From assembly GCF_964204865.1 (NCBI RefSeq), contig NC_135258.1:8857001-8921000 (forward strand): 64,000 bases of DNA, given 5' to 3'. This DNA comes from Styela clava. Taxonomy: Eukaryota > Chordata > Ascidiacea > Stolidobranchia > Styelidae. Below are positions 3,001-42,887 of this stretch, piece after piece (the first letter of the stretch is position 1; the number at the start of each line of letters is the position of its first letter). The notes beneath the pieces are model-generated. The model did no database searches and was not told where the DNA came from. It saw only the letters and a program-made list of their open reading frames with translations. Both the position numbers and the translations under genes were made by a program.

Positions 3001-3924
3001 AAATTACCGGAACGATTAGTTACTGTTTTGAGACCAAATTTTAGGCTTTGTTGACCAAACATTAGAAAACTTTAGGAGGCACGATTCATCGCCATTACGT
3101 TAAAGTCGGCTCAATTTTAAACGTCTTTCTAGAGTGGTAGCAGAAGCCTTTGAAATTAGCCAGTTATTCAATTGCGGTAACGTGGATGCCCTAATTAACA
3201 GTTTGTTAGTTTTTTAGTAAAGTGGCCCATTAGCATTGATAAAATACTTCACCAATTATCCTCTTGACGGTATGTGAAATTGAAAATATACTCATGGTAC
3301 GCCTATGCTTTACCGCTCTTCACGCGCACTTCATAATCACCCACACGAGGGGAAGTATATGCAAACTTATTGGTAATTACTAAAAGGCGCGAAATGAGAA
3401 TATTCCAGACTAAAAACATAACTGGATTTTAAGACCGGGTGCTTTGACTGCTGTAGTTTTATCTGACACGCTAATGCTATACCGAATCCAAAATATAGTG
3501 CGTTATTTTGATCATTATGAATTGTAAGAAAAACTTCAAAAACATGTCACTCACCAAGTGGCGACCAAGTCGCACCAAGTTGAAAATTCAAGAATAGGTT
3601 TTCTTTTGTGTCGAACTCACTAACAGGTTGTATCATTTCAGAAAATGTATGTATGTTGTTATTATACGTAAGCTGCTTTAACATTAACGTTAATTTTAGT
3701 AGCGAGACAGACAGACGACGAATTATAATCGCCTACCTTCTGTAATTTAATGGAGGCCGTTGGTTACTCAATCTCTCAAAATGAAATATATTTTTATGTT
3801 TTGTTTTAATTTAAATATACATTGGAATGCAAATCCAAACAATTAATAGTAAAAGATGTTTTTATTTTTTCCCAAGAAAAATATTATATTAAATAGAAAT
3901 TGGGGATATAAAGAAACTTTTAAG
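1..3924. other. Intergenic stretch, no gene recognised
   Basis: AT-rich sequence with frequent stops in all frames. The only open frames are short (under 70 codons), overlap on both strands near 1450-1740 and show no motif. I see no convincing splice-linked exons, RNA gene or element ends. It probably includes the upstream region of the Wnt5-type gene that starts at 3925. Confidence 0.5.
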
Positions 3925-22828: not shown

Positions 22829-23044
22829 GGGGTACTCCTGAAGTATGTGAACCGAGATGGTGGACAGGTTAGGGTCAGGCAATGGTTTTAATCTAATTTT
22901 CCGTATTTTAGTTCTATTACTAGTTTAGGGACTAGCCAAGTGACTCTCGTAGTAATTGTACCTGAGATTATTGCTTAACGATAACCTGGTACACATACTA
23001 CGTTCCGGTGTCCGCCATCTTGAATCGCATATTTCGGGAGTACC
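22829..23044. mobile_element. hAT-like MITE, copy 1, within the U4 cluster
   Basis: 216 bp with long imperfect terminal inverted repeats. The left end reads GGGGTACTCCTGAAGTATG. The right end, reverse-complemented, reads GGTACTCCCGAAATATGCG and continues through AAGATGG. It belongs to the same family as 29802-30037 and 39511-39676, which both have perfect 8-bp target duplications. Here the flanks (ATTAAAAA and AAATAAAT) no longer match well. It interrupts the U4-unit upstream sequence, which is continuous in the unit near 25.9 kb. Confidence 0.75.
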
Positions 23045-23167: not shown

Positions 23168-23311
23168 AGCTTTGCGCAGCGGCAGTATCGTAACCAATGA
23201 GGTTTATCCGAGGTGCGATTATTGCTAGTTGAAAACTATTACCAATACCCCGCCGTGGTGGCGCAAACGCGTCGCTTGTGGCAATTTCTGAAGGGTTGTA
23301 GGCAACCTGTA
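23168..23311 (+). ncRNA. RNU4: U4 spliceosomal snRNA, apparently intact
   Basis: About 144 nt that can be read along the whole U4 consensus. The 5' end AGCTTTGCGCAG...GCAGTATCG pairs with U6. Next comes CCAATGAGGTTTATCCGAGG with the 5' stem-loop kink-turn region, then GCGATTATTGCTAGTTGAAAACT. The central domain with ACCCCGCCGTGG is followed by the Sm-site region AATTTCTGA. A terminal hairpin follows (AGGGTTG/CAACCT around a short loop). U4 is the partner and chaperone of U6 in the tri-snRNP. Length matches the usual 140-145 nt. A promoter element lies at -62. The 3' end is set from the terminal hairpin and may be off by a few bases. Confidence 0.93.
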
Positions 23312-23599: not shown

Positions 23600-23643
23600 C
23601 TAGGGTTTATTCATACTTTCATAAGAACATTTTTCTCTCTTCC

Positions 23644-23752
23644 GTAACCAATGAGGTTTATCCGAGGTGCGATTATTGCTAGTTGAAAACTATTACCCTG
23701 GTGATACAAACGCGTCGCCTGTGGCAATTTCTGAAGGTTTCTGCGAAACCTA
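23644..23752 (+). pseudogene. U4 snRNA pseudogene, 5'-truncated and internally deleted
   Basis: It starts at GTAACCAATGAGGTTTATCC, so the first 23 or so bases that pair with U6 are missing. The segment after GAAAACTATTACC jumps to a shortened central domain. The Sm-site region AATTTCTGA and a near-perfect terminal hairpin (AGGTTTC/GAAACCT) remain. With no 5' domain it could not form the normal U4/U6 duplex. Confidence 0.85.
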
Positions 23753-24822: not shown

Positions 24823-24880
24823 AAACATTTTTTGGCAAATTTTTCTCAATACTATTGCTAACCAAGCTATTTGTCTAGTT

Positions 24881-25677
24881 CAGTGGTTTTCAACCTTTTA
24901 CTGACCACTTTAATGTTTTTTTACTCTGGCCGCGTACCACTGAAAAAGCCATTTTTGGCGCGGAGAACAATGGCACAAGACACGCGCTATGGAAGTATTT
25001 CATAACGTGGCACAAGGACCTAATTCGCAGGACGGACGAAAACATGCCCATCTCAATCCGTTCGTGGACAATAGCAGGCGAGGGCGATCTCTAAAGACTG
25101 GACTGATTCATAAGACGTTTCCCCGACCCTTGACCCCAGAAAAAATCTTCCTATACTTCACTATTGCAAATTTTTTTTTCTTATTTTGAGAGTGTTTTGA
25201 TGTGTTGGCGCTTATAAACTGGTTTACGTGTTTGAAAGCCTTCTTTTTTATTAAAATTAATCAACCATGTGCCGCTTACAGGCACTGATAGTTTAGTTTA
25301 TATTAGTCTATCGCAGCATTTGCGAGACTCATTTTTTATTACCAAAACTAAATTAATGCTCCTTCGAAAACATAATTTGACAATTAAGATATTTAATTCA
25401 CTATTTTTTTTTTGAAACGCAACTGAAAACTGACAAATAACACGCAAAACTACAAAAACGAGGCAATGTTTACTGGTTGTTGCTGGTTACGGAATTGAAC
25501 AAGGAAATTCATGCACGGAGGAACATTCATAAAGGTCGTTCAGCAAATACAATCAGTATAGTAGATAAAGCGTTGTCGGCATATTTTGGCCAACTCAAAA
25601 GTTAATTGTTGCAATAATTCAAAGCTGCTCGCGTACCCCTTGATCAACTTCCGCGTACCACAAGTTGAGAACCACTG
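24881..25677. mobile_element. hAT-type non-autonomous transposon, 797 bp
   Basis: Terminal inverted repeats CAGTGGTTTTCAACC (left) and GTTGAGAACCACTG (right). The flanks are a perfect 8-bp duplication, GTCTAGTT, at 24873-24880 and 25678-25685. Subterminal CGCGTACCAC repeats occur at both ends. The one open frame (24989) shows no transposase motif. The insertion lies just downstream of the retrotransposon fragment. Confidence 0.9.
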
Positions 25678-25999
25678 GTCTAGTTGAACGGATTTTCAAT
25701 TTTACTTTGAGTTTGTCATCATTCGAAGTGAATATGAAATCAAATTGCTTTAAGTCTAAATGACATCTTGATCAGTATTTTTCTATCTTCTGTTTCCAGC
25801 TTATTATACTCTGATGCTAATCGGAAACAACTCCATGATCTTCCTGAAATTCAAAATACGATTGGTTTCTTTGTGGTGGGCTTGAATGAGTTCATGCTGT
25901 AATCTGTTGTCAATTTTGTGATATTAAATAATTTATTACAAAAGGCGATTGTGGGAATTTTAATTTATATCAAAACGTGACAATTATGTGCGTTTTTTC

Positions 26000-26232: not shown

Positions 26233-26305
26233 AGCTTTGCGCAGTGGCAGTATCGTAACCAATGAGGTTTAATGAGGAAAAAAAAAAAAAAAAACCAATG
26301 AGGTT
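26233..26305 (+). pseudogene. U4 copy split by retrotransposon insertion
   Basis: The first 39 nt of U4 are intact to CCAATGAGGTTTA. Then come ATGAGG and an A-run of about 17, then CCAATGAGGTTTA again, and then the retrotransposon 5' region. The expected continuation TCCGAGGTGCG is missing. The repeated CCAATGAGGTTTA behaves as a target-site duplication made from U4 itself, and the ATGAGG-poly(A) as a very short 3' remnant of an earlier insertion. The 3' half of this U4 was not found in the window. Confidence 0.85.
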
Positions 26306-26428
26306 TATTGGTGTAATTGGCTGTATCGAGCTAGTTGTTTGATTAAGATGAACATTTGCTATTGTTATTATCTATTGGAACACTTTGGATTGTAAACTAT
26401 ATGGAATATACATTCGTGGATACTAAAA

Positions 26429-27848
26429 ATGGATTACTCCGCAGCTCTTACAGGATCAATGGGGATTACAGGTAATCGCCCTCGATCGGTTGTCACAGAG
26501 GTGAGTGATTCGGTTCCATTACATTTGAACCCACGTACATTTGAACCCATGACAATTGCACCTGTATGCTATTGCACCTATGGATTTTTTTTTGGTTCAC
26601 GGATAGTTAAACCCATACTAACCCTAACCCATGGGTTTTAGCACCCGCATATAGATTGAACCCGTGGATATACGCATGTGTTCAAATGTACGTGGGTTCA
26701 AATGTACGGTCACCGAGTGATTCTATTGATATAAACCGATTTCTCTACATCTTGGGAGAAAACCTTGTAACAAAAAGATATGTCGAACAACTGTCAGGAA
26801 TTTTTGAAACTAGGCCGAAAATTTGGTTGATATCTTTCAAACAGTTGAATCCAACAAATCCAAGTGATTCAGTTAGAGACAAATTTATTGTAGAAACGCA
26901 AAATGGCATTAACGTAGATGATACAATAGTACGCTTTTTTCTACCCACAAAACCTTCAACAAGAATCAGCATTCGCGATGTGCCAGACGAATCACGACCA
27001 CAAGTCGTCCTTGAAGCTCTGAACAAGGCTGAATGCGGAAAAATTAAAAGCATGACCAAACTATACTACCGAAACACTCAACTATTCAACGGATATATAG
27101 CTGTATGGATAGATGGTTTTAAACAGAAAAAATTGCCCCCCTTTCTTGTCATTGACAAAGCTAGGTGCAAAGCCTACGTATCCACCGAGCTGTACAATCC
27201 AACGTGCATGAACTGTCTTAATCCTGGTCATAATGCAAGAAATTGCCGAAATAAAACAAAAATGTAGATCATGCAAAAGTGCCACGTTCAGGCAAATTGC
27301 CCCCTAAAATCCAAGGTAAGACCGAATAATATGGAATCGTGGCTTAAGGAATCAATATCTACAAAACCTGGGATAGTATCATATGTAGAAGAAAAAAAGA
27401 CGCAGCACCAAACAATAACACCATACCAGAAATAGGAGATAATCAAATTGCAGAGGCAGTGCTCCCAACTTCTCACTTCGACACAATACCTGATACGGAT
27501 TTGTTATACGAAGAAGTAAAAGATTGGTTTCTATCAAAAGACAATAGGATAACAACACCCCAAAAGCGCACGTCACCTCGCAAAACAGTACCGAAACATA
27601 AATTAAAACCTACATCTACAATAGGGAACACTCCAATTGGACCCCCAGTAATTGGCAAATCGTATATAAACATGGTAATTAACGACCTAGAGAATCCAAA
27701 TAGCACGTATGAAACTGACCCATCACAAACACTCACACTTGAGCCTACTATTAGCAAAACCGAAAAACAGATTGGAAAACGGGAAAGAGAAAATACCTCT
27801 TCGTCGACAACATCGATAATATCACCCTCACCAAGACCCAACATATGA
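26429..27848 (+). pseudogene. Retrotransposon ORF1 (nucleic-acid-binding, CCHC), broken
   Basis: The start at 26429 opens the frame MDYSAALTGS. A 203-bp MITE at 26512-26714 interrupts it, after which the frame resumes (IDINRFLYILGENLVTKRYV). Near 27208-27250 is a zinc knuckle, CMNCLNPGHNARNC, fitting C-x2-C-x4-H-x4-C. It is typical of LINE ORF1 proteins that coat the element RNA. A frameshift follows at about 27265, with hints of a second CxxC in another frame. The rest (27459-27848) is a Ser/Thr/Pro-rich tail. ORF1 ends in TGA at 27846-27848, overlapping the ORF2 ATG. Confidence 0.8.
26512..26714. mobile_element. Palindromic MITE with 9-bp target duplication, in ORF1
   Basis: 203 bp bounded by a perfect 9-bp duplication, GAGTGATTC (26503-26511 and 26715-26723). 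Inside both ends lies a long inverted repeat, TACATTTGAACCCACGTACA on the left and its complement on the right. A 9-bp duplication suggests a Mutator-like (MULE) origin; class is inferred. Removing it with one duplication rejoins the ORF1 frame, so it landed after the retrotransposon. Confidence 0.85.
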
Positions 27849-30205
27849 CTGAAACTCCATCACAATTAAAAATAATCTCACTGAACGTAAACGGACTAGA
27901 AAAAAATTGGAAAAAACTAAAAATCTTCATAACTTACCACAACCCAGACATTATTGCTTTACAAGAAGTCCACAGAGTTAAAAGCAACGTTTTCGAGAAA
28001 CGACTTAAAACATGGGGTACAGATTATTTATTAACTCACTGACCGACTTCGATAAAAGGGATGACCAAAGATTCTTCCAAGGCACCGCCACTGCAGTAAG
28101 AGAAAACCTATGTGCAACGCACAGCCTTGAATATGTAATATTCATACCTTGTAAAGCGTGATCGACATCAATGACGAACTTACAAACCAAAGACAAGCTA
28201 TCTCTAGTAAATGTTTATGCACCTCCCAGAAGAGGCGACAGAAAAACTAGAATGTTCTGCAAAAAGCTGATAAACTTTGTGAGAGAGATCAAGCATATTC
28301 CAATTTAACATGGTTCACCAAAAATAGACGTCAGCAACGAAAACTCATTTACACTAGGGAACCCAGAAAGAAAATGGAAAGACTTTATACAAGCTTACAA
28401 CTACATAGACACCTATAGATATCACTGGCCCGATAAAAGATTATATACAATTACCAGGAGGAGACAATCCCGACGAATAGATCGAATATATATTCCGTAC
28501 AACATTAGTCATGAATTAAAAAATACAGAATATTTAGTAAACACCGTTTCAGACCACCACTTGGCATCGCATATCACTTTCAAAAATATTAAGCAAGTTA
28601 AATGGGGATGGGGAACCTAGAAAAACAATACTGCTCATTTTAAGAATGAAAAAGTCAGATTTTTGATAAAAGAGATATACAAAAAAGAAAAACAGTTCAA
28701 CATCAAACCAAGAAATATATTTACTCAATAAAAACCTGCAGCAAGTAGAAAAAAAAAGTGACGTTCAAACAAAAAACAGCAAAAATCAAAGCATTAGAAC
28801 AAAACGAAAGACCAACTAAATATTTCTTTGACAAATTGAAAACTAGAAGACGGAAAACTACTATAGACAGCCTCCAAAACAAAGAAGGAAAGTATTTGAA
28901 AACAAAAAATGAAATACTGGATGAAGCGCAAAAATTTTACCAAACATTATGGAAACAAACGTAAGTAGGGGAGGAAAAAAGAATGGGGGAGTATCTCAAA
29001 ATATATGGAGAAACCATGCTTAGCACTGAGGAAAAAGAAGGAAGAACTATTCAGAACACTGAAACAAATGGACAATTTCAAAACTCCGGGACCAGATGGG
29101 TTATCAAAGGAATTTTACCTTGAATTCTGGGAAATTCTAAAGAATGACCTGCACCAGCTAGTAAACAATGCTATCGCTTTCGACACATTACCCAAAAGTA
29201 GCAAAGAATCGATAGTCACCCTTATCTTTAAAAAAGGAAACTCAAATCACCTAGCAAATTACCGGCCCATATCAAACTTAAATGTAGATTTTAAACTGAT
29301 ATCAAAAATAATAGCTAACCGATTGAAACTTATCTTGGATAAATATATAATGCCAACACAAAAAAGCGCGATTCCCAACCGATCCATATTTGATAGCTTA
29401 CGAAATATTCAAGAAATATGGAATTATACAACAAAATGGAACCTACCTTTATATATAATCAGTTTCGATCAGGAAAAAGCTTTTAATATGGTTAACCAAC
29501 GTTTTTTATTCAAAACCATGACTAAACTAAACTTCAACAAAAATATTATTAAGTTAATCAAAGAAATGTACAATTGTATATACAGCAGAATACAAATTAA
29601 CGGAGCTAAAACCAATAAAATCTTTTTGACCAGGGGAATTAGACAAGGCTGTCCTGCCCATTGAGCATGGCAATGTACACCTTAGCCATGACCCATTGGC
29701 AAGAAAAATCATCGCGAACCAAAAGATAAAAGGATTCAGTATCGGGAAATACAAAACCGTAATTGATCAATTTAGAGACGACAATACAACATACGCGCGA
29801 GGGGGCTTCCGAAGTATGCGAACCAAGATGGCGGACATCGTAATGTAACATGTGTACTAGGTTAGGTTTAGGCCATAATTTTAGGTATGAATACTACGGG
29901 AGGCTCTTGGCTAGTCTTCGAACTGATAATAGGACTAAAATAAGGAAAATTGGAAAAAAATTATCGCCTAACCCTAACCTGTTACCCATGTTACGTTCCG
30001 ATGTCCGCCATCTTGGTTCGCATACTTCGGGAGCACCCGCGCGAGACATTTGGAATATTTGATAAATCGTTTGCGTGTTGGAATATTTACTATGACTAAT
30101 AACCTACTGACAAATCACCAAAAAGATTTCTCGCTTATAGAATATTTTATTCAAAAATTCGACTTGCCCGACAATTTCTTCTCACAATTGTACATTTGCA
30201 ACAAA
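27845..30205 (+). pseudogene. Retrotransposon ORF2 (endonuclease and reverse transcriptase), broken
   Basis: Starts MTETPSQLKIISLNVNGL with the N-terminal AP-endonuclease block (SLNVNG, then IIALQEVH). A stop follows near 28040. Later endonuclease blocks are readable in shifting frames: SLVNVYAPPRRGD near 28204, RRIDRIYIP near 28475, and SDHHLASH near 28551. The reverse transcriptase runs from about 29065 with TPGPDGL, NYRPISNLNVDFKLISKIIANRL, SFDQEKAFNMV and RGIRQGCP. Next comes a stop, then a shifted frame with FRDDNTTYA, matching the catalytic YADD box with Ala replaced by Arg. A MITE cuts in at 29802. Motif order and the QEKAF form point to the L1/Tx1 group. The copy cannot be active. Confidence 0.85.
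29802..30037. mobile_element. hAT-like MITE, copy 2, inside the RT domain
   Basis: 236 bp. The left end reads GGGGCTTCCGAAGTATGCG and the right end, reverse-complemented, GGTGCTCCCGAAGTATGCG. Inverted-repeat similarity runs about 65 bp per arm, through AACCAAGATGGCGGACATCG and GGTTAGG. A perfect 8-bp duplication, CGCGCGAG, lies at 29794-29801 and 30038-30045. No coding capacity. It inserted a few codons after the FRDD box. Confidence 0.92.
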
Positions 30206-41540: not shown

Positions 41541-42887
41541 ATGACTGAAGAAGTGACAGAAGAAATGAGTGGCGACGACATGGATGATGGAAATGTCATG
41601 AAGAGTATTATGCATAGGGGAATAGCGGTGGAGTTCATATTATTGGTTTTAAACTTGTATCTTGCGGTGGCATTCGGATTGCACGGAAAAAAAGAAAAGA
41701 TGATGAAATGTCGTTCTAATAGAGATATGCATCGTGGTTTAGTGTATAAAAGTGCTCTTGCAGCCGTGATTTTACCATTCCTACGGTACGCATGTACCTT
41801 GGCGTTCATATTTGAAGGCCTTTTCTCAACTGGATTCAATGGATGTGAATGGTCTGCTGATTTTGCATATGTAGGTTTAATGCTGGGGCTTTTACCAACG
41901 TATACGTTTCTATGGGCCCGGCAGAGAGCATTCTACAGCCATCCTAGCCTTAGTGGAAAATACGGTGTCTGTATCAGTTTAACAAGCAAGTTTGTTTTTG
42001 TGCCCATAATTGTCCAAGGGTTGGTATCTGTAGTACTCGCTACATATACAAGAGAATACGAACTAGATATCAAAAACCATCAATGCGTTCTGTCAGATCA
42101 TGTACCCCATGTTGACTACAGAGAGTTTCTCTATGCCGGGGTGATGGTTTCAAGTCAAGTTGTATTACTGTTGCTCTTCATAAACCCGATCGTATCGCAT
42201 GTAAAATCACAGAATAAGCAATTCACGGTACGAAGAAATGCAAACGATGATACGGATTTCAAATCAACCACCGAGAGTAGCTCTCAGCACGATGTATCCA
42301 CGATAAATGTTGTTAACACTGTCAGCCAACAATCGGTATGCGGCGTGAGTTTGTCAACAAACCTGCCAGGCCACAATACCAACGAATTGGATGGCGAAAG
42401 GGTCAAGGGTCAAGATGAAAATACAACGAAAGAAATTATCATGCAAGTTTCCAACAAAGTACCAATTCAAACATACAAAAATCAAACTATGCTGGGTGTG
42501 GATAATCCAGCTGCAGATATTCCAGACTGCAAACCCAATAAAACATCAACCAAAATAGCTGATACGTTACGACGTCAGAGTACCCTCGCCACCAATTTTA
42601 TAAAACGAGCGACACGTGGCCGTGATACTGTCAGACGTGGAGGAAAAGTTTTCAGGCTTATGAAACGAACACTCTATCTTGCCTTGACATCAGTTTTATC
42701 CGATATCTCGGTTTTATTGATCTCGGTTATTTGGAGCAATGAGATTCCTCAATCTATGCTGTTTGTGCTATACGACATAAGCATGTTTATCAACGTAGTT
42801 ACCGTTACTGCTTCTTTTGAAAATTGGTGCAAGATATTGAGGCTCCCGTGCACCGTGCCTTTCAAGTGTTTGGATACTCAAGCTTGA
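41541..42887 (+). CDS. Orphan seven-transmembrane receptor-like protein, intronless
   Basis: Single open frame of 448 codons from the first ATG (MTEEVTEEMSGDD), which gives a short acidic, Met-rich N-terminus. Seven hydrophobic segments are visible at about 28-49, 67-93, 106-128, 147-170, 197-219, 380-398 and 406-427. Cys102 just before segment 3 and Cys182 between segments 4 and 5 are placed like the conserved disulphide of rhodopsin-type GPCRs. After segment 3 comes WARQRAFYSHP, where GPCRs have DRY; the canonical triplet is absent, and segment 7 has no NPxxY. Between segments 5 and 6 lies a long polar loop (about 224-375) rich in Ser/Thr/Asn, ending in Arg/Lys-rich DTLRRQ and RRGGKVFRLMKR. 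The C-tail is short with three cysteines. I do not recognise a named family. It is not Frizzled-like, despite its Wnt neighbours, because it has no extracellular cysteine-rich domain. Ligand and pathway are unknown. Confidence 0.8.
   Translation: MTEEVTEEMSGDDMDDGNVMKSIMHRGIAVEFILLVLNLYLAVAFGLHGKKEKMMKCRSNRDMHRGLVYKSALAAVILPFLRYACTLAFIFEGLFSTGFNGCEWSADFAYVGLMLGLLPTYTFLWARQRAFYSHPSLSGKYGVCISLTSKFVFVPIIVQGLVSVVLATYTREYELDIKNHQCVLSDHVPHVDYREFLYAGVMVSSQVVLLLLFINPIVSHVKSQNKQFTVRRNANDDTDFKSTTESSSQHDVSTINVVNTVSQQSVCGVSLSTNLPGHNTNELDGERVKGQDENTTKEIIMQVSNKVPIQTYKNQTMLGVDNPAADIPDCKPNKTSTKIADTLRRQSTLATNFIKRATRGRDTVRRGGKVFRLMKRTLYLALTSVLSDISVLLISVIWSNEIPQSMLFVLYDISMFINVVTVTASFENWCKILRLPCTVPFKCLDTQA

Follow-up and report, generated by a model that had tools for sequence, protein, structure and literature searches.

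The window, that is, the whole stretch of 64,000 nucleotides analysed here (C10:8857001-8921000, within the 376.6-Mb genome of the ascidian Styela clava), contains the beginning of a U4 snRNA gene followed by the remains of a non-LTR retrotransposon. This raises the question of whether the element inserts specifically in U4 genes and, if so, how it reaches them. As will be argued, the window very probably carries an old copy of a target-specific, L1-like retrotransposon, probably of Tx1 type, whose target lies between nt 39 and 40 of U4 and which would move by the mechanism proposed below.

The interrupted gene retains U4 nt 1-39 to the left of the insertion site (26233..26271, + strand; 39/39 identical to the U4 5' end) and, as read directly, this segment terminates in CCAATGAGGTTTA. 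With a local score of 71, versus 16 for the best of 20 shuffles, the 200 bp upstream of 26233 resemble those of the U4 gene at 23168, an intact-looking gene of the same small cluster (23168..23306, +; Rfam RF00015, 120.9 bits). A degenerate U4 copy with an altered 5' end, in which U4 nt 1 to about 21 are not conserved, is found at 23626..23748 (+; RF00015, 62.9 bits). Downstream of nt 39, direct reading gives a tiny first insertion (26272..26294, +), made of ATGAGG (26272-26277) and A17 (26278-26294), then a second copy of the 13-bp target CCAATGAGGTTTA (26295..26307, +), with a poly(A)-CCAATGAGG junction identical to that of the C10 insertions. Non-U4 DNA begins right after 26307. Four occurrences of CCAATGAGGTTTA with at most one mismatch are present in the window, versus a shuffle mean of 0.11, and none of 100 shuffles reached four. 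The succession of U4 1-39, ATGAGG, about 17 A and a repeated CCAATGAGGTTTA, reported in an initial annotation of the locus, is thus what is read at 26233-26307. That annotation also let the 5' end of the element follow the second CCAATGAGGTTTA; the order is right, but 18 nt (26308..26325, +), found in none of the 8 other copies, intervene, and the element proper starts at 26326 (TCGAGC), as fixed by these copies. The 18 nt are possibly a decayed piece of a U4 leader, as weakly suggested by a 10/11 match to U4 nt 13-23, the TCG of the element included (equalled in 28 of 5000 shuffles), and by an end-to-end alignment to U4 with TCG held fixed, for which 96 of 5000 shuffles are as good.

The decayed copy extends over 26326..29801 (+; blastn to the copy on C3, 87-91% identity in four main pieces) and includes the 5' UTR, ORF1, the endonuclease and part of the reverse transcriptase (RT). 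Its alignment to a complete copy goes no further than 29801, i.e. about position 3582 of 5159, and shows internal gaps; the 3' third of the element and the 3' half of U4 are gone, so that the copy cannot be called near full-length, as had been proposed. An RT fragment is recognizable at 29026..29664 (+; Pfam RVT_1, E 8.3e-20), and no Pfam match was obtained with the ORF1 frame of this copy. ORF1 is interrupted by a 203-bp nested repeat (26512..26714, strand not assigned) flanked by a 9-bp duplication, GAGTGATTC, at 26503-26511 and 26715-26723. The window copy is older than the 8 young copies, as judged from a divergence of 8.3-8.8% (3204-3244 sites compared). Other features were noticed in the window. 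A short repeat with 87-bp inverted arms (29796-30043) lies in the RT region of the element, with GCGCGAG on either side, and a relative of it sits in inverted orientation near 22857-23040. Another repeat (24875-25683), with inverted ends CAGTGGTTTTCAAC / GTTGAGAACCACTGG that we take to be hAT-like, has TCTAGTT on its flanks. An open frame of 448 aa (41541-42887, +) encodes several hydrophobic stretches discernible by eye and has no Pfam match at E 0.001.

At least 42 U4 matches with scores exceeding the cut-off are present in the genome; nearly all belong to a cluster at C4:20.09-20.16 Mb or to another at C10:7.36-7.43 Mb, the genes being arranged in tandem arrays. The genome also gives a glycoside-hydrolase-6 match (35.4 bits, cut-off 27), as would suit a tunicate. 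A genome search with window positions 26308-26500 retrieved 9 element 5' ends, whose flanks were read. All 9 follow a U4 motif whose last base is nt 39 (GGTTTA, or the same with one base changed). The TCGA of the element joins this motif directly in 8 of them, as predicted by the initial annotation, and after 18 more bases in the window copy. Six copies lie within U4 loci: besides the window copy, two on C4 (C4a, 20117079; C4b, 20139497) and a head-to-tail triplet in a single U4 gene of C10 (C10a, 7399772; C10b, 7404978; C10c, 7410196), the members of which are parted by nothing but poly(A)-CCAATGAGGTTTA. The three others (C10:16891738, C3:19859873 and C9:16767957) are dispersed outside U4.

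All 8 complete copies end in CTGATCCG-poly(A), and the 5 complete copies found in U4 all read CTGATCCG-poly(A)-(C)CAATGAGG. This junction continues into TCCGAGG, the rest of U4, in C4a (with one base change between), C4b and C10c, and into the next element in C10a and C10b. As the five 3' ends re-enter (C)CAATGAGG, the insertion generates a target duplication of 12-13 bp. Taken together, the 9/9 5' ends at the site and the 5/5 re-entering 3' ends bear out the proposed specificity for U4 genes. The proposed 3' end fared less well. Indeed, (C)CAATGAGG or TCCGAGG does follow the poly(A) in all five copies, but ATGAGG is absent from their 3' ends, and ATGAGG-poly(A) is therefore not the end of the element. 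This discrepancy, which the initial annotation would have counted against itself, concerns a wrong detail and not the target. As the ATGAGG of the window repeats the AATGAGG of U4 itself, the tiny first insertion is not attributable to the U4-targeted element; it is an insertion with a poly(A) that is tied to no template. Such tiny poly(A) insertions do happen, as indicated by the C3 copy, where a poly(A)-only reinsertion into its own duplication gives A22-GATTAATTAGGGTTATT-A25-GATAAATTAGGGTTATT. Two insertions at the same base, as suggested for the window, are thus documented by the C10 triplet, but the tiny insertion of the window cannot be counted among those of the element.

The same picture emerges from the target side. 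The pattern A8-(C)CAATGAGG occurs at 10 distinct sites genome-wide, 7 of them in U4 (5 matches for the reversed-pattern control); among the 7, the one at C4:20152531 stems from another family, whose truncated insertion there has a histone-family tail. The 13-mer target has 68 exact sites genome-wide among the matches listed, and the junctions lie on five contigs. Of 75 U4-like sites with at most 2 changes in the DNA pieces examined, 64 continue as U4, 3' junctions included, 8 run into the element, and 3 do otherwise (2 in the window copy and a chance occurrence on C2). A scan of viral contigs for the U4-element junction found none.

The complete copies are 5119-5159 bp long, and their 28 pairwise differences range from 0.55 to 1.50%, which indicates recent and separate insertions. 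Two of the 8, the C3 copy and C10a, have kept ORF1 (431 aa) as well as ORF2 (1172 aa) open. ORF2 carries Exo_endo_phos (E 1.1e-12) and RVT_1 (E 2.9e-30) Pfam domains, and its best solved relative, human L1 ORF2p, aligns with it along residues 1-881 (E 6.2e-71). With its APE-type endonuclease, RT, poly(A) end and target-site duplications, the element is an L1-type non-LTR retrotransposon. Furthermore, it is probably of Tx1 type. A fixed insertion site in a repeated sequence is typical of the Tx1 clade, and such a site is found at 9/9 5' ends, three of which are off-target with a U4 leader. An ORF1 with CCHC zinc knuckles is also a trait of this clade; the zf-CCHC match of ORF1 (E 0.00093) scores 19.6 bits, under the curated Pfam cut-off of 20.8.

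The three dispersed copies are informative about the RNA that served as template. In each of them, U4 sequence from nt 2 or 3 to nt 39 precedes the element, with 36, 38 and 38 identical positions out of 39. No resemblance to U4 flanks is seen in the 200 bp upstream (scores 15, 15 and 13; shuffle maxima 15, 24 and 17), and Rfam finds no match in their flanks. U4-promoter-like DNA is present upstream of C4a, C4b, C10a and the window copy (scores 164, 184, 45 and 71; shuffle maxima 16-23); the second and third copies of the triplet score 13, because another element adjoins them upstream. Duplications of their own sites flank the C3 copy (15 bp) and the C9 copy (11 bp; 0 and 1 of 2000 shuffles, respectively), and the C10:16891738 copy has no clear one (6 bp, 676 of 2000 shuffles). 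The leaders start at most 2 bases from the U4 start and stop at the genomic junction, which fits the remnant of a U4-element co-transcript. The simplest reading, from genomic copies alone, suggests that the template RNA begins where U4 transcription does and that the U4 promoter drives the element, a step that we infer from three copies. These would be fossils of the 5' end of the transcript that mark, in the genome itself, its likeliest transcription start. Insertions at random sites had been expected to speak against U4 specificity; among the 8 young copies, 3 are indeed found outside U4, yet all three carry U4 nt 2/3-39, which argues more for dependence on U4 than against it. Beside this, the 3' flanks of the dispersed copy at C10:16896884 and of a relative at C16:13946900 contain the same repeat, CGTTTTATG..TTAATAATTGG, a few bases from the poly(A), a possible shared off-target site.

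The leaders could also have been acquired otherwise, if insertion is U4-specific and the RT jumped from the element RNA to mature U4 snRNA. Such template switching has precedents, since LINE-1 chimeras with U1-U6 snRNAs are reported (PMC13174262), and a relative described below has its 5' end preceded by pieces of U2 and U5. However, a jump would be expected to begin near the U4 3' end or anywhere, whereas nt 39, after which the element is inserted in the genes, is exactly where all three leaders stop; moreover, the U6 of LINE-1 chimeras is described in the same paper as consistently full length. We therefore hold template switching to be an improbable source of these leaders, and co-transcription from the U4 promoter is preferred.

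Repeated targeted insertion would itself be superfluous if the copies had been multiplied by DNA duplication of U4 arrays. The U4 genes are indeed in tandem and the C10 triplet could stem partly from unequal crossing-over, but the copies occupy three U4 loci and three non-U4 sites, are 0.55-1.50% apart and differ in poly(A) length and private indels; even C10b and C10c, at 0.55%, are about as distant from each other as from copies on other contigs. Array duplication as the general explanation thus appears very unlikely. Even less can be said for an ordinary LINE inserting randomly, with a proximity to U4 due to chance or to an assembly artefact. Its argument is the older relatives outside U4: a genome search with the 3' end of the element gives 16 matches, half of them the 8 complete copies and half older (75-92%); of the 8 older matches, 2 reach the 3' end (C17, 89%; C16, 75%), both outside U4, and 6 stop earlier. 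It is refuted by the junction census, in which all nine 5' ends fall on the same base of a 13-mer and the junctions are spread over five contigs, and its probability is practically nil. The older relatives may rather mean, as far as their location tells, that the choice of U4 is young in the lineage, or leaky.

Targeted insertion with co-transcription, the reading retained here, could proceed as follows. An element located within a U4 gene would be transcribed from the U4 promoter, giving an RNA that starts with U4 nt 1-39, as the off-target copies suggest, and its two proteins would be made, their ORFs being intact in 2/8 copies. The APE-type endonuclease would then open another U4 gene by a bottom-strand nick at GTAA(C)/CAATGAGG, from which reverse transcription would start on the poly(A) tail, in agreement with the observed junctions. 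Cutting of the top strand past GGTTTA would account for the observed 12-13 bp duplication, and the exact 5' junction would perhaps be obtained by annealing of the U4 leader of the cDNA to the top-strand end of U4. As the duplication rebuilds the target, further copies can insert, as seen in the C10 triplet. The 18-nt 5' excess and the lost 3' junction of the window copy count against this reading, and all counts on the U4-targeted element come from one genome.

The U4 insertion site lies in what we take to be the part of the 5' stem-loop bound by the 15.5K protein. This part is among the most conserved stretches of U4, and the target should therefore, on this background, exist in many animals. 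U4 would thereby join the snRNAs whose genes are targeted by transposons, as a new member. According to a 2015 statement, the transposons reported for snRNA genes were Keno and Utopia (U2), Dada-U1 and Dada-U6 (PMC4640811), and the accessible parts of the Dada papers add no U4-targeting transposon (PMC3706591, PMC8869645). No paper on a U4- or histone-targeted retrotransposon was found in the open-licence literature searched, in keeping with the suggestion that the target might be undescribed.

The element nevertheless resembles several known systems. Keno, of the Tx1 clade, is likewise an APE-type LINE with a constant insertion point in a spliceosomal snRNA gene (PMC4640811), but, in this comparison of published descriptions, its target is U2 rather than U4 nt 39/40. 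Utopia, an R2-like element of U2 genes, shares an snRNA-gene target and occasional tandem insertions (PMC4640811) but uses a restriction-like endonuclease; the U4 element, targeted to U4, encodes Exo_endo_phos (APE-type), and no restriction-like endonuclease domain is found among its Pfam matches. Dada elements likewise target multicopy small-RNA genes (U1, U6 and tRNA genes; PMC3706591, PMC8869645) but, unlike the U4 element, are DNA transposons with 6-7 bp duplications and without RT. Co-transcription with the target has been proposed or described for NeSL-1 and CRE/SLACS (spliced-leader genes) and for R2 (28S) (PMC7650587, PMC3636483), whose endonuclease class and targets differ from those of the U4 element; furthermore, R2 is said to remove the co-transcribed part by a ribozyme, whereas the inserted copies of the U4 element keep the U4 leader. 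The kind of system is thus known, and the novelty, within the reach of the literature search, lies in the U4 target and in the U4 leader that is retained.

The relatives of the element suggest still other targets. Of the 150 scored matches that an RT search of the genome gave, many lie in clusters biased towards one strand. When 29 RT rows, all copies from this genome, are placed in a tree, a copy at C8:7833526 groups with the window copy and the U4 copies (97/98), and their neighbours are C16 and C19 (100/100). The C8:7833526 copy, the closest relative of the U4 element (77% RT identity), lies within a histone array (95 H3 matches in the genome, most at C8:7.30-7.97 Mb). It ends in CTGATCCGT-poly(A)-TCGTTGAACA10-TGGCC directly at the start codon of a histone H3 gene (within C8:7835647-7837000); upstream of it are found another 3' end, then GTTGAACAAAAATG, then its own 5' end. 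From this arrangement, it is a probable histone-H3-targeted element. The H3 empty site GTTGAACAAAAATGGCC, with at most 2 mismatches, was found nowhere in the histone array among the matches listed, and control matches were about as many (159 against 85, among the matches listed). A more distant relative, C8:7649790 (within C8:7646400-7652700), interrupts codons 4-7 of a histone H2A gene, with ATGTCTGGAAGAGGTAAAGGC in front, GAGGTAAAGGCGGC past the poly(A) and the duplication GAGGTAAAGGC; the H2A frame downstream is recognized by Pfam.

Two other relatives are associated with tRNA-Lys. Past the poly(A) of the C2:15946116 copy, the sequence re-enters a tRNA-Lys(UUU) gene (within C2:15948000-15949300), the anticodon being that given by ARAGORN on the neighbouring array. 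In the C13:2243889 copy, tRNA-Lys nt 1-43, a stretch with 43 of its 45 genome matches in the C2:15.88-15.97 Mb array, precedes the 5' end and no tRNA follows, ARAGORN detecting none in C13:2246010-2248200. The histone H3, histone H2A and tRNA-Lys targets are, at one locus read for each, leads. In a sister of the C13 copy (C2:12892800-12893100), pieces of U5 and U2 snRNAs stand in front of the 5' end (U2, 54.1 bits; U5, 34.2 bits, under the gathering score of 40), which is what template jumping would give. At C4:20152531 (C4:20152440-20152560), a U4 gene contains a tiny insertion followed by poly(A)-CAATGAGGTTTATCCGAGG. Its tail matches the 3' end of the histone family (score 20-21, 0 of 1000 shuffles); a truncated U4-family copy was considered and rejected, the tail being unlike that family beyond TCTGATCCG (score 9, 71 of 1000). 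The RNA of a relative seems to have been inserted here at the U4 site, perhaps via the proteins of the U4 family.

A tentative and more general proposal, towards which we lean less than towards its absence, is a radiation of L1/Tx1-type elements, each settled in its own repeated gene (U4, the H3 start codon, H2A codons 4-7 or the tRNA-Lys(UUU) anticodon arm). The promoter and 5' sequence of the target would act as promoter and guide, the 5' piece of the target carried by the element RNA helping to place the next copy. Small-RNA capture by template jumping, as with the U2 and U5 pieces on one copy, could give a lineage a new target. If true, such a radiation takes in sites inside protein-coding exons of histone genes. 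The young copies with intact ORFs, the short exact target and the differently targeted close relatives make these elements a good system for studying target choice and its change. Strand-biased clusters of relatives with 43-50% RT identity are also observed at C4:23.30-23.47, C8:4.23-4.52, C6:19.24-19.69 and C5:7.90-7.95 Mb.
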